Shown here piece after piece: positions 20,677-57,968 of a stretch of DNA of 64,000 nucleotides. The position numbers and the translations under genes were made by a program. This DNA comes from Streptomyces sp. R41 (GTDB taxonomy: Bacteria > Actinomycetota > Actinomycetes > Streptomycetales > Streptomycetaceae). The stretch spans positions 5,377,001-5,441,000 of the forward strand of contig NZ_CP163443.1 of NCBI RefSeq assembly GCF_041053055.1. The letters are read 5' to 3'. The notes below the pieces were generated by a model. That model ran no database searches. It saw only the letters and a list, made by a program, of their open reading frames with translations, and had not been told where the DNA came from. Each line of letters begins with the position of its first letter. Within the stretch, counting starts at the first letter, position 1.

Positions 20677-21663
20677 ATGACCGCGTACGAGTCACCGGGA
20701 CCGCCCGAGTCGCCGGGTACGCCCGAGCCATCGGGCAGCCCCGAGCCACCAGGCACCCCCGGGGCCGATGTCCCGTACGACGCCGTCGTGCTCGCAGGCG
20801 GCGCCGCGCGGCGGCTGGGCGGCGCGGACAAGCCCGGCGTGCGCGTCGGCGGCCGGGCGCTGCTCGACCGGGTGCTGGCCGCCTGCGCCGACGCCGTCAC
20901 CACGGTGGTCGTGGCCGGGCCAAGGGCGACCGCACGCCCCGTGGAGTGGGCCCGCGAGGACCCGCCCGGCGGAGGACCGCTGGCCGCGCTCGACGCCGGG
21001 CTTCGGCACACCGGCGCGGAGTACGTCGTCGTCCTCTCGGCCGATCTGCCGTTCCTGGACGAGGGGACGGTACGACGCCTGCTGGGCGCTCTGCAGACCA
21101 GCGACGCCCCGGCGAAACCCGAGGGCGTTGTGCTCACCGACCGCGACGGTCGCGATCAACCCCTCGTCGCCGCGTACCGCGTGGAGGCCCTGCGCCGTGA
21201 GCTGGCCGTTCTCGCCGCCGCCCACGGCGGACTCACCGGGCTGCCGCTGCGGCGGCTCATCGCCGCGCTCGACCTCACCCGCATCTCCGACCCCGTCGCG
21301 TCCTTCGACTGCGACACCTGGGACGACATCGCCGCCGCCCGGGCACGTATCAGGGAGCATGGGCACGTGTTGGATGAATGGATTTCCGCAGTCAAGGACG
21401 AGCTGGGCCTCGACCTGGACGTCGACACCGGCGTCCTGCTCGACCTGGCCCGCGACGCCGCTCACGGGGTGGCGCGGCCTGCCGCGCCGCTGACCACGTT
21501 CCTCGTGGGGTACGCGGCCGCGCGCGCCGGCGGGGGCCCGGAAGCCGTGGCCGAGGCCGCCCGCAAGGCCGCGGCGCTTGCGCTCCGCTGGGCCGACGAG
21601 GACGCCCCCGACGCCAAGCCGGACGCCGGAAGTGCCCCCCAAGCCGAGCCGGACGCAGGATGA
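20677..21663 (+). CDS. MobA-like nucleotidyltransferase fused to DUF6457
   Basis: 328 residues. After a Pro-rich N-terminal tail with short repeats (PPESPGTPEPSG), residues about 30-215 are a MobA-like NTP-transferase domain: the loop is VVLAGGAARRLGGADKPGV and the metal site lies in LSADLPFLDEG. MobA-type enzymes attach GMP to molybdopterin. The last 90 residues (LDEWISAVKDELGLDLDVDT onward) match DUF6457, which often accompanies molybdenum genes. The stop overlaps moeA by ATGA, which supports a cofactor role. The exact nucleotide transferred is inferred. Confidence 0.85.
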   Translation: MTAYESPGPPESPGTPEPSGSPEPPGTPGADVPYDAVVLAGGAARRLGGADKPGVRVGGRALLDRVLAACADAVTTVVVAGPRATARPVEWAREDPPGGGPLAALDAGLRHTGAEYVVVLSADLPFLDEGTVRRLLGALQTSDAPAKPEGVVLTDRDGRDQPLVAAYRVEALRRELAVLAAAHGGLTGLPLRRLIAALDLTRISDPVASFDCDTWDDIAAARARIREHGHVLDEWISAVKDELGLDLDVDTGVLLDLARDAAHGVARPAAPLTTFLVGYAAARAGGGPEAVAEAARKAAALALRWADEDAPDAKPDAGSAPQAEPDAG

Positions 21664-23030
21664 CGCCCGCCCACTCCACCCGGGACAGTCAGGACGCCGA
21701 CGATCTCGACGTCGAGGAGGCGCTCGCCCTGGTCAAGGAAGACGGCGCGCCCGCCCCCGAGGGCCGTTCGGTGCCCGCGCCCGCCCCCGGCGCCGAGCGG
21801 CCCGGACGAGGGGCCGCGCACGCCCATCACCAGGCCACCCCCTGGCCCGAGGCCCGCGCCGTCGCCGAGCGAGCCGCCCGGTCCGTGCCGCGTCGGGCCC
21901 CCGTTTCCGTACCCCTCGACGCCTCCCTCGGCCTTGTCCTCGCCGCCCCCCTCACCGCGCTCACGGACCTGCCCTCCTTCGACACCTCCGCGATGGACGG
22001 CTGGGCGGTCGCGGGACCCGGGCCCTGGGAGGTACGGGAGGAAGGCGTGCTCGCCGGGCACGCGGAGCCGGAGGCGCTCACCGACGGCGAGGCCGCGCGT
22101 ATCGCCACCGGGGCGAGAATCCCGCAGGACGTCACCGCCGTACTGCGCAGTGAGCACGGGCGGATCGACGACAAGGGGCGGCTGCACGCGACCCGGGACG
22201 TCGTGCACGGGCAGGACATCCGCCCGCGCGCCCAGGAGTGCCGCAGCGGTGATCAGCTGCTGCCGGTCGGCGTGCTGGTCACGCCCGCCGTGCTGGGCCT
22301 CGCCGCGGCCGCCGGGTACGACACGCTCGCCACCGTCCCCCGTCCGCGCGTCGAAGTCCTCGTGCTCGGCGACGAGTTGCTCACCGAGGGACTGCCCCAG
22401 GAGGGGCTCATCCGGGACGCGCTCGGCCCGATGCTGCCGCCGTGGCTGCGCGCGCTCGGCGCCGAGGTCGTCGCGGTGCGCAGGCTCGGCGACGACGCCA
22501 AGGTGCTGCACAAGGCGATCACCGGCTCGGACGCCGACCTGATCGTCACCACCGGCGGTACCGCGGCGGGTCCCGTCGACCACGTCCACCCCACCCTGAA
22601 CCGTATCGGCGCCGAACTTCTCGTGGACGGCGTGAAGGTGCGCCCCGGGCACCCGATGCTCCTGGCCCGCACCAAGGAGAACCAGCACCTCGTCGGTCTG
22701 CCCGGCAACCCGCTGGCCGCCGTCTCCGGCCTGCTCACGCTCGCCGAGCCCCTGCTGCGCACCCTCGCCGCACGCACGGCCCCGGAGCCGTACACGCTGC
22801 CCCTCCAGGACGCGGTGCACGGGCACCCGCACGACACCCGGCTCGTTCCCGTGGTGCTGCGCGCCGACCGGGCCGTGCCGCTGCACTACAACGGTCCGGC
22901 GATGCTGCGTGGCATCGCGGCGTCCGACGCCCTCGTGGTCGTACCGCCGGGGGGCGCACGGGCCGGTCAGGAGCTGGAACTCCTCGACCTCCCGTGGGCC
23001 ACCGCCGGGATCGACGTGTGCTTCACATGA
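21660..23030 (+). CDS. moeA: Molybdopterin molybdotransferase MoeA
   Basis: 456 residues. MoeA ligates molybdate to adenylated molybdopterin. The signature SFDTSAMDGWAV lies near residue 108, and the catalytic domain has VTTGGTAAGPVDHVHPTL and VRPGHPMLLA. The first 65 residues are an acidic, low-complexity extension not found in shorter MoeA proteins. It is coupled to the upstream MobA-like gene by ATGA. Confidence 0.93.
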   Translation: MTPAHSTRDSQDADDLDVEEALALVKEDGAPAPEGRSVPAPAPGAERPGRGAAHAHHQATPWPEARAVAERAARSVPRRAPVSVPLDASLGLVLAAPLTALTDLPSFDTSAMDGWAVAGPGPWEVREEGVLAGHAEPEALTDGEAARIATGARIPQDVTAVLRSEHGRIDDKGRLHATRDVVHGQDIRPRAQECRSGDQLLPVGVLVTPAVLGLAAAAGYDTLATVPRPRVEVLVLGDELLTEGLPQEGLIRDALGPMLPPWLRALGAEVVAVRRLGDDAKVLHKAITGSDADLIVTTGGTAAGPVDHVHPTLNRIGAELLVDGVKVRPGHPMLLARTKENQHLVGLPGNPLAAVSGLLTLAEPLLRTLAARTAPEPYTLPLQDAVHGHPHDTRLVPVVLRADRAVPLHYNGPAMLRGIAASDALVVVPPGGARAGQELELLDLPWATAGIDVCFT

Positions 23031-23051
23031 GCGCGGACAGGCCGCGACTTG

Positions 23052-23138
23052 CATGAATCCAAGCGGGGGCGCGGTTCACATGGATCCAATCGGGGTGCGG
23101 TTCACATGAATCGGAACGGGGTGTGTTTCACGTGAAAC
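23052..23138. repeat. 26-bp direct repeat array ending in parS
   Basis: Units beginning CATG at 23052, 23079 and 23105, and CGTG at 23131, spaced 27, 26 and 26 bases. The shared form is CATGAATCNAANCGGGG followed by TGCGGTTCA. The junctions read GGTTCACATGGATC, GGTTCACATGAATC and finally GTTTCACGTGAAAC, the perfect parS. The array starts 22 bases after moeA and covers the start of the potassium channel gene. Confidence 0.8.
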
Positions 23139-24229
23139 TTCCGGGCCATGACGCGATCGCCCGCCAAGCGGACGAGCATCTCGTGACCCATCGGGTGAAA
23201 CTCCCGAGGAAGGTCGTGGAACGCCCGATCCGTCAGGTCCTCAAACGGGTGGCGATGGCACTGCTGGTGCTCGTCGCCACCGCGCTCATCGTCTGGGCCG
23301 ACAGCGATGGCTACAACGACAACTCGGACGGCACGGTCGACCCGCTCGACGCCTTCTACTACGCGACCGTCACCCTCTCCACCACCGGATACGGCGACAT
23401 CACCCCGGTCAGCGATGCCGCCCGGCTCACCAACATCTTCGTCATCACGCCGCTGCGCGTGCTGTTCCTGATCATCCTGGTCGGCACCACGCTCGAGGTC
23501 CTCACGGAACGCACCCGGGAGGAGTGGCGGCTGAACCGCTGGAGGGCGGCCTTGAGGGATCACACCGTCGTTGTCGGCTTCGGGACCAAGGGCCGGTCGG
23601 CCATCGAGACCGTCTGCGCGACCGGGCTGAAGAAGGAGCAGGTCGTGGTCGTCGATCCCAGCTCCAAGGTCGTCGACGCGGCAACGGCCGAAGGGTATGC
23701 GGGGGTCGTCGGGGACGCGACGCGCAGCGATGTGCTGGTAAGGGCGGAGGTCCGCAGGGCCCGGCAGATCATCATCGCCACGCAGCGGGACGACACCGCC
23801 GTACTGGTCACACTCACCGCCCGCCAGCTCAACCGTGCGGCGAAGATCGTCGCCGCCGTACGGGAGGAGGAGAACGCGCCGCTGCTCAAGCAGTCCGGCG
23901 CCGACGCCGTCATCACCAGCGCCAGCGCCGCCGGCCGACTGCTCGGGCTCTCCGTGCTCAGCCCCGCCGCGGGCATGGTCATGGAGGACCTCATCCAGCA
24001 GGGCAGCGGGCTCGACATCGTCGAACGGCCGGTCATAAAGGCCGAGGTCGGCAAGGGCGTACGCGAGACGGACGACCTGGTGGTGAGTGTCGTACGAGGA
24101 CACCGGGTCCTCGGCTACGACGATCCGGCCGTCGGGACGATCCAGCTGACGGACCGCCTCATCACGATCGTGCGGGCGACACCGGGCACGCAGGTGGCGC
24201 CCCACATGCGACCGCTTCCTCAGGACTAA
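23123..24229 (+). CDS. Two-TM potassium channel with RCK (TrkA-N) domain
   Basis: 368 residues. Two membrane helices (about residues 43-59 and 105-123) flank a pore loop with the selectivity filter TTGYGD at about 87-92. A cytoplasmic RCK domain follows, with the nucleotide fold VVVGFGTKGRSAIE. Such channels conduct potassium out of or into the cell and open on ligand binding to RCK. The frame from GTG 23123 encodes FHVK through a parS palindrome; there is no clear ribosome site, so starts at GTG 23132, 23183 or 23195 are possible. Confidence 0.85.
   Translation: MFHVKLPGHDAIARQADEHLVTHRVKLPRKVVERPIRQVLKRVAMALLVLVATALIVWADSDGYNDNSDGTVDPLDAFYYATVTLSTTGYGDITPVSDAARLTNIFVITPLRVLFLIILVGTTLEVLTERTREEWRLNRWRAALRDHTVVVGFGTKGRSAIETVCATGLKKEQVVVVDPSSKVVDAATAEGYAGVVGDATRSDVLVRAEVRRARQIIIATQRDDTAVLVTLTARQLNRAAKIVAAVREEENAPLLKQSGADAVITSASAAGRLLGLSVLSPAAGMVMEDLIQQGSGLDIVERPVIKAEVGKGVRETDDLVVSVVRGHRVLGYDDPAVGTIQLTDRLITIVRATPGTQVAPHMRPLPQD
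23125..23138. other. parS site, chromosome segregation
   Basis: GTTTCACGTGAAAC, identical to the Streptomyces parS consensus bound by ParB. These sites cluster around oriC. This copy overlaps the start of the channel gene. Confidence 0.9.
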
Positions 24230-57954: not shown

Positions 57955-57968
57955 GTTTCACGTGAAAC
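57955..57968. other. parS site, chromosome segregation
   Basis: GTTTCACGTGAAAC, a second perfect parS, between the phosphatase gene and aspS, 62 bases before the aspS start. Confidence 0.9.

Follow-up and report, generated by a model that had tools for sequence, protein, structure and literature searches.

Among the closest described systems is the MIRU (mycobacterial interspersed repetitive unit), a repeat that, according to a review on translational coupling, carries a small ORF coupled to the next gene through a −4 nt overlap (PMC12548453). The unit is put at 40-100 bp in another account (PMC2734929); M. tuberculosis H37Rv has MIRUs at 41 scattered places, and the repeats are regarded as mobile (PMC12548453, PMC2734929). 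Coupling of this kind depends on distance. For example, PMC10666635 reports three E. coli gene pairs in which a stop-to-start distance of 38 nt lowers reinitiation by 80-100%. The other system of interest is the chromosomal parS cluster of Streptomyces; in S. venezuelae, 17 parS have been seen bound by ParB (PMC12511625).

Here we describe a locus at which these systems appear to meet. It lies in a stretch of 64,000 nt from Streptomyces sp. R41, referred to below as the window, where a parS at the start of a potassium channel gene is preceded by worn copies of itself. We consider it quite probable that the worn units are kept as a MIRU-like translational relay descended from a duplicated parS/coupling junction, and not as a set of weak ParB sites. 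Open-licence papers, searched by title and the start of the abstract, yielded none on parS coinciding with a stop/start overlap, or on a parS-derived relay.

The moeA/channel operon and its common junction

The features that define the junction in the window are as follows.

21660..23030, plus strand: moeA, molybdopterin molybdenumtransferase (Pfam MoeA_N, MoCF_biosynth, MoeA_C), with the C-terminus ..GIDVCFT before the stop
23125..23138, plus strand: parS (unit 5 of the array), a perfect GTTTCACGTGAAAC; its GTGA at 23132-23135 is the stop/start overlap of the channel gene
23132..24229, plus strand: two-TM K+ channel with a TrkA-N domain (Pfam Ion_trans_2, TrkA_N)

The start of moeA is itself an ATGA overlap (21660-21663) with an upstream mobA-like/DUF6457 gene, and the same overlap was found at 69/69 loci where the start could be located by a short motif rule, 81 having been tried. 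Because of this ATGA and the GTGA at the channel start, the mobA-like gene, moeA and the channel gene form a tightly overlapped operon, with parS on its second joint.

How general is this arrangement? Relatives were drawn from the best 80 of 522 matches from named genomes, plus further loci. Junctions were counted over 357 loci (the window, L016-L185, and L216-L403 minus L316 and L317), of which 278 were distinct and locatable, 59 were duplicates over 450 bp (by subtraction) and 20 had no locatable junction. The last group comprises L156, L163, L169, L171 and L183, which lie at other parS places; L175, which repeats the genome of L110; L110, L111, L116, L173, L180 and L383, which lack an intact channel after moeA (parS is perfect in five of these and has one mismatch in L116); L355, with a frameshifted channel; L115, L401 and L402; and L122, L390, L399 and L403. 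The sample leans to relatives of the window, since it was built from listed matches, and some 70 of the genus genomes sampled fall outside it.

The common state, seen at 233/278 distinct Streptomyces junctions, is that moeA ends within a single parS, reading TGT TTC ACG TGA. The channel frame at such a junction reads GTG TTT CAC GTG AAA C, and the GTG within parS forms a GTGA with the moeA stop. Of the 278 junctions, 276 have a perfect parS where the channel starts. The two others, L053 and L374, have one-mismatch sites there, GTTTCACGTGAGAC and GTTCCACGTGAAAC. At two loci, L043 and L136, the channel has its parS, with no moeA recognised directly upstream.

There are two candidate starts for the channel in the window. 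The true start is most likely GTG 23132, inside parS, rather than GTG 23123, judging from the variation among junctions. For the codon two bases ahead of parS, 248 of the 278 junctions have GTG, 20 ATG, 5 GCG, 3 ACG and 2 CTG; a start at this position would thus be dispensable, because GCG or ACG stands there in 8/278. A start at GTG 23123 is disfavoured for the same reason, and a GGGG lies 10 nt before GTG 23132. The GTG 23132 start is also favoured by L401 and L402, where the channel begins GTG AAG CTC CC in the absence of parS. No hidden in-frame extensions of the channel were found among the first 203 distinct junctions, where the start and TxGYGD are 85-88 residues apart with a single exception (95).

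A five-unit array in front of the channel gene

The sequence-only reading had described four units with spacings of 27/26/26 bp from just past moeA into the channel gene, the last of them a perfect parS. The spacings (cores at 23053, 23080, 23106 and 23132) and the parS at 23125-23138, with 0 mismatches, hold as described. The four units exist, and a fifth had been missed; it lies at the end of moeA, 26 bp before the next, with its core ATG at 23027. The array therefore consists of five units spanning 23018-23138, with NTG cores at 23027, 23053, 23080, 23106 and 23132 and steps of 26/27/26/26 bp. From unit 1 to unit 5, the mismatches to parS number 5, 6, 4, 3 and 0.

The 26-bp periodicity is not due to chance. 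At lag 26, the array matches itself at 54/100 positions (z 5.8), a score far above those of 1000 dinucleotide shuffles, in which the best lag never exceeded z 3.6. Tandem Repeats Finder reports period 26, 3.2 copies and 81% matches on the array, and a separate repeat search of the window returned three copies with spacing 27/26.

The elements upstream of the final parS, as read or translated in silico from the DNA, are these.

23018..23033, plus strand: unit 1, a parS/overlap relic inside moeA, GTGTGCTTCACATGA, with core ATG 23027 and ATGA at 23027-23030
23027..23056, plus strand: minicistron 1, MSADRPRLA and stop, 9 codons, starting at the ATGA of moeA
23053..23109, plus strand: minicistron 2, MNPSGGAVHMDPIGVRFT and stop, 18 codons; the 27-bp step holds the frame through unit 3
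23106..23135, plus strand: minicistron 3, MNRNGVCFT and stop, 9 codons, its TGA stop lying within parS

Unit 1 reads GTG TGC TTC ACA TGA where the common junction reads GTG TGT TTC ACG TGA, and both changes (TGT to TGC and ACG to ACA) are synonymous. In unit 3 (23073-23086), ATGG stands in place of ATGA and provides no stop. An in-phase ATGA stop/start is thus retained by three of the four upstream units, none of which is still a parS. The hand-over from moeA, read from the sequence, runs through ATGA 23027, ATGA 23053 and ATGA 23106 to GTGA 23132. Since 26 is 2 mod 3, a start in one unit shares its reading frame with the stop in the unit that follows.

The distance from the moeA stop to the channel GTG at 23132 is 101 nt. 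A bare gap of this length should uncouple moeA and the channel, because reinitiation drops steeply with distance in the gene pairs of PMC10666635. With the relay, a stop and a start would overlap at every step, and the moeA/channel pair in the window does show the stop/start overlap of a coupled pair, in relayed form. A point against the relay is that Shine-Dalgarno pairing at the first two relay starts, −3.1 and −3.9 kcal/mol, does not exceed background (shuffled mean −3.9), unlike that at 23106 and 23132, which reaches −8.6 and −10.5 kcal/mol. Structured RNA was also considered as an identity for the units, and was rejected when no Rfam match at gathering scores was found in 22800-23400.

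Could the units instead serve ParB, as weak or auxiliary sites through which its loading at parS is enlarged or tuned? The near-miss junctions had been proposed as weak ParB or regulator sites, and we consider such a role quite unlikely. It draws some weight from the fact that the units are relics of parS, one of which, unit 4 of the S. albiflavescens array described below, is still GTTTCACATGAAAC, a single mismatch away; from the abundance of close parS pairs (4-34 bp spacer), at least one of which occurs in 342/392 genus genomes; and from the finding that the ParBs of several species bind the half-sites GTTTCAC/GTTCCAC (PMC7022226). The window's upstream units have 5, 6, 4 and 3 mismatches, however, and none of GTTTCAC, GTTCCAC, GTGAAAC and GTGGAAC occurs in 23011-23121. 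Moreover, the parS-like letters vary between the window, S. albiflavescens and Streptomyces sp. Tue6028, whereas the NTGA quadruplet and its phase are kept. The near-miss units are also unremarkable as parS-like sites alone, because the whole 64-kb window holds 3 sites with ≤3 mismatches (two of them perfect) against 0.9 expected, and 7/100 shuffles reach 3. Tandem parS as such is ordinary in the genus; what is new is the phase rule and the decayed form that keeps the phase.

Reading phase at expanded junctions

There are 44 distinct expanded junctions in the sample, in which moeA stops 13 to 133 nt short of the codon that precedes the channel parS. In a chain test, each NTGA was read as a stop plus a restart, and we asked whether a ribosome would get from moeA to the GTGA of parS. 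An unbroken NTGA chain ends exactly at this GTGA in 43/44 expanded junctions. Counted by clade-length state, the chain is present in 28/29 against 7.0 expected when the insert is shuffled and given a random phase. A plain fixed-length shuffle (8.8/24 expected, 23 seen) was set aside in favour of this null as too kind to short inserts. Every one of the 17 expanded clades includes a success, and in 16 the chain is intact throughout. A FastTree gene tree requires a minimum of nine changes in the overlap/expanded state. Multiplied together, the nine largest of the null values put the chance for nine events at about 2e-5, with the proviso that some events may be losses and not gains. The tree is a quick FastTree of two genes, midpoint-rooted, from which L043 was left out, and the clades and states are not fully independent.

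Another outcome, in-frame extension, was seen in 0/44 expanded junctions, as opposed to 13-35% of simulated ones. The phase also outlasts changes in length: the window's clade, with −92, −94, −113, −45, −40 and −39, keeps it. In the sole exception, L229 (G393), the chain is broken by a 1-nt deletion relative to its neighbour L018. Some links look poor: CTGA, a weak start, serves at 11/66 non-final hops, and three hops use relay ORFs of only 2 codons.

Many expanded junctions still contain more than one intact site. Two to four perfect parS are present in 24/44, with an intact chain in 24/24, and the distance from the first to the last parS is 2 mod 3 in 23/24 (29 to 146 bp). In the remaining one, L365, both steps, 62 and 53, obey this rule. 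Intermediate parS copies are sometimes in frame, with steps of 21, 30, 48 and 54. Decayed arrays alone are weaker evidence than these cases of parS followed by parS, because several TGAs make a chain robust to single indels; random deletions of 0/1/2 nt leave the chain of the window's array in place in 70%.

This robustness bears on a neutral explanation, in which the units are slippage copies and the chain is a by-product of duplicating a segment that contains a stop and a start. Not only does the window's array tolerate indels, but any duplication with a length of 2 mod 3 yields a chain automatically. Such an origin predicts equal phases, however, whereas the coupling phase is found in 43/44 junctions and outlasts the length changes within clades; furthermore, L173 and L383, which are without an intact channel, lack the phase. 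We therefore regard a purely neutral relic as unlikely.

L173 (G257) and L383 (G192) belong to a small set of genomes in which the two roles of the junction come apart. Both have a perfect parS after moeA, but the chain from moeA misses the parS GTGA, and the channel is absent or truncated to about 35 codons. In L110, L111, L116 and L180, moeA likewise ends in parS (with one mismatch in L116) and no intact channel follows. Conversely, L401 and L402, from less similar genomes, show the GTGA overlap in this position but no parS (5-6 mismatches), the start reading GTG AAG CTC CC; the upstream ORF of L402 was called moeA from a short motif only. L115, which is outside the 44, has an unbroken chain, the last unit of which is 2 mismatches from parS. 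In these few genomes, then, parS occurs whether or not the channel is there, and the phase appears to follow the channel whether or not parS is there.

Might the minicistrons matter for their products, say a leader peptide with a regulatory effect on the channel? In 15/44 expanded junctions an in-frame ATGA or GTGA precedes the parS GTGA by 26 bp, and a start there often gives M-[NKRS]-x-[NIS]-G-[VEG]-C-F-T (15 junctions, 13 with ATG). The C-F-T end is forced by parS, though, the rest is variable, and the relay ORFs at the same place in other clades are unlike these and 10 to 49 codons long. An acting peptide is very unlikely on this showing. Returning to the relay, we infer that it would be translated and that coupling would be what selection keeps.

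Origin of the array and comparison with known systems

S. albiflavescens (L016) has a homologous five-unit array, with mismatches to parS of 5, 5, 3, 1 and 0, whose counterpart in Streptomyces sp. Tue6028 (L017) is more eroded. The window's array shares its origin with that of S. albiflavescens, and clades besides the window's have expansions of their own. The suspicion that the array was noise in one strain is thereby dispelled. The alignment proposed earlier, which asked whether units and parS are kept together, gives a divided answer: most genomes have parS without units, an outcome that had been named beforehand as refuting, and S. albiflavescens keeps both. It had also been left open whether parS arose from the array or seeded it. 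A single origin for the two is upheld, and because a single parS is the common state elsewhere (233/278), the evidence supports seeding and not the reverse direction. The array almost certainly originated by duplication of a parS-bearing stop/start overlap. Hence parS most likely came first, and the array is a lineage-specific tandem duplication common to the window and S. albiflavescens.

How might such an array have formed? The ancestor would have had one parS on the moeA/channel junction, with three uses for the same 14 bp: first, as a ParB site; second, as the closing codons of moeA with its stop; and third, as the channel start, where the 4-nt GTGA overlap would allow termination-reinitiation. 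Tandem copying of about 26 bp from this junction would then have followed in the lineage of the window. If the last copy alone was still needed as parS, the earlier copies could decay as parS and be kept as in-phase stop/start couplers, because with them the channel stays coupled to moeA. The present array would be three tiny cistrons that take over ribosomes as they terminate on moeA and pass them along the 101 nt to the start of the channel gene.

The locus is part of a larger parS cluster. The 10.46-Mb genome (one contig) has 17 perfect parS, all within 5,269,652-5,434,968 (166 kb), surrounding parB (5,331,221) and dnaA (5,338,460). A further eight sites differ from parS at one position; of these, the site at 9.87 Mb (9870738-9870751) is 4.4 Mb off the cluster and 0.6 Mb from the chromosome end. 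The second perfect parS in the window is at 57955-57968; 644 open codons on the minus strand end at its TGA, with a GC3 of 0.66, and it is probably not a real gene end on that strand. A different parS, at L163, L169, L171 and L183 and, judging by flanking bases, at L001 of the source genome, lies at the beginning of a gene and codes for the N-terminus (M/V)FHVKPIDPRLLRYARATxLF.., which looks like that of a membrane protein. The start of a coding sequence may be a habitual place for parS in Streptomyces. Separately, G288, G198, G217 and G334 have 18-26 closely spaced parS pairs, against 0-5, judged by eye, in most genomes, indicating strong local amplification.

We lean, with some reserve, towards a broader reading: that a centromere site doubles as a translational coupler, that its repeated local multiplication gives rise to minicistron relays, that copies survive only with phase-keeping spacing, whether as parS (the 24/44) or decayed, and that a MIRU-like element has thus arisen de novo many times. 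Why would this matter? First, chromosome segregation and translational coupling are unrelated functions that would share the same 14 bp across much of the genus, with natural variants that separate them. Second, the junctions offer a test, from sequence and with many replicates, of selection for termination-reinitiation between two genes. Third, they suggest how MIRU-like relay arrays can begin. Fourth, if true, the rule that each hand-over requires an overall phase of 2 mod 3 constrains the growth of a parS cluster inside an operon.

How does the array compare with the systems described at the outset? It is like the ATGA/GTGA pairs of termination-reinitiation in its stop/start quadruplet and its expected dependence on short distance (PMC10666635). 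Ordinary pairs have one overlap, whereas the window's array has four in a chain, the last within a centromere site. With the Streptomyces chromosomal parS clusters it shares the 14-bp site, the position near oriC and the presence of several close copies. It differs in that all but one of the window's copies are no longer parS, and in that expansion appears to have been filtered by reading phase. Set beside MIRUs, it has the same combination of a repeat beside a gene, a small ORF and a −4 nt overlap, an arrangement that would leave expression of the neighbour undisturbed; for the window's array the likeness is one of sequence. The MIRU, in contrast, is longer and scattered, whereas the unit in the window is 26 bp, local, born of parS and arranged so that the array ends in a consensus centromere site. 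Indeed, a 25-bp piece of the last unit that includes parS has one match at ≤2 mismatches in the whole genome. By analogy, then, the array would work like a MIRU, yet it is not a MIRU.
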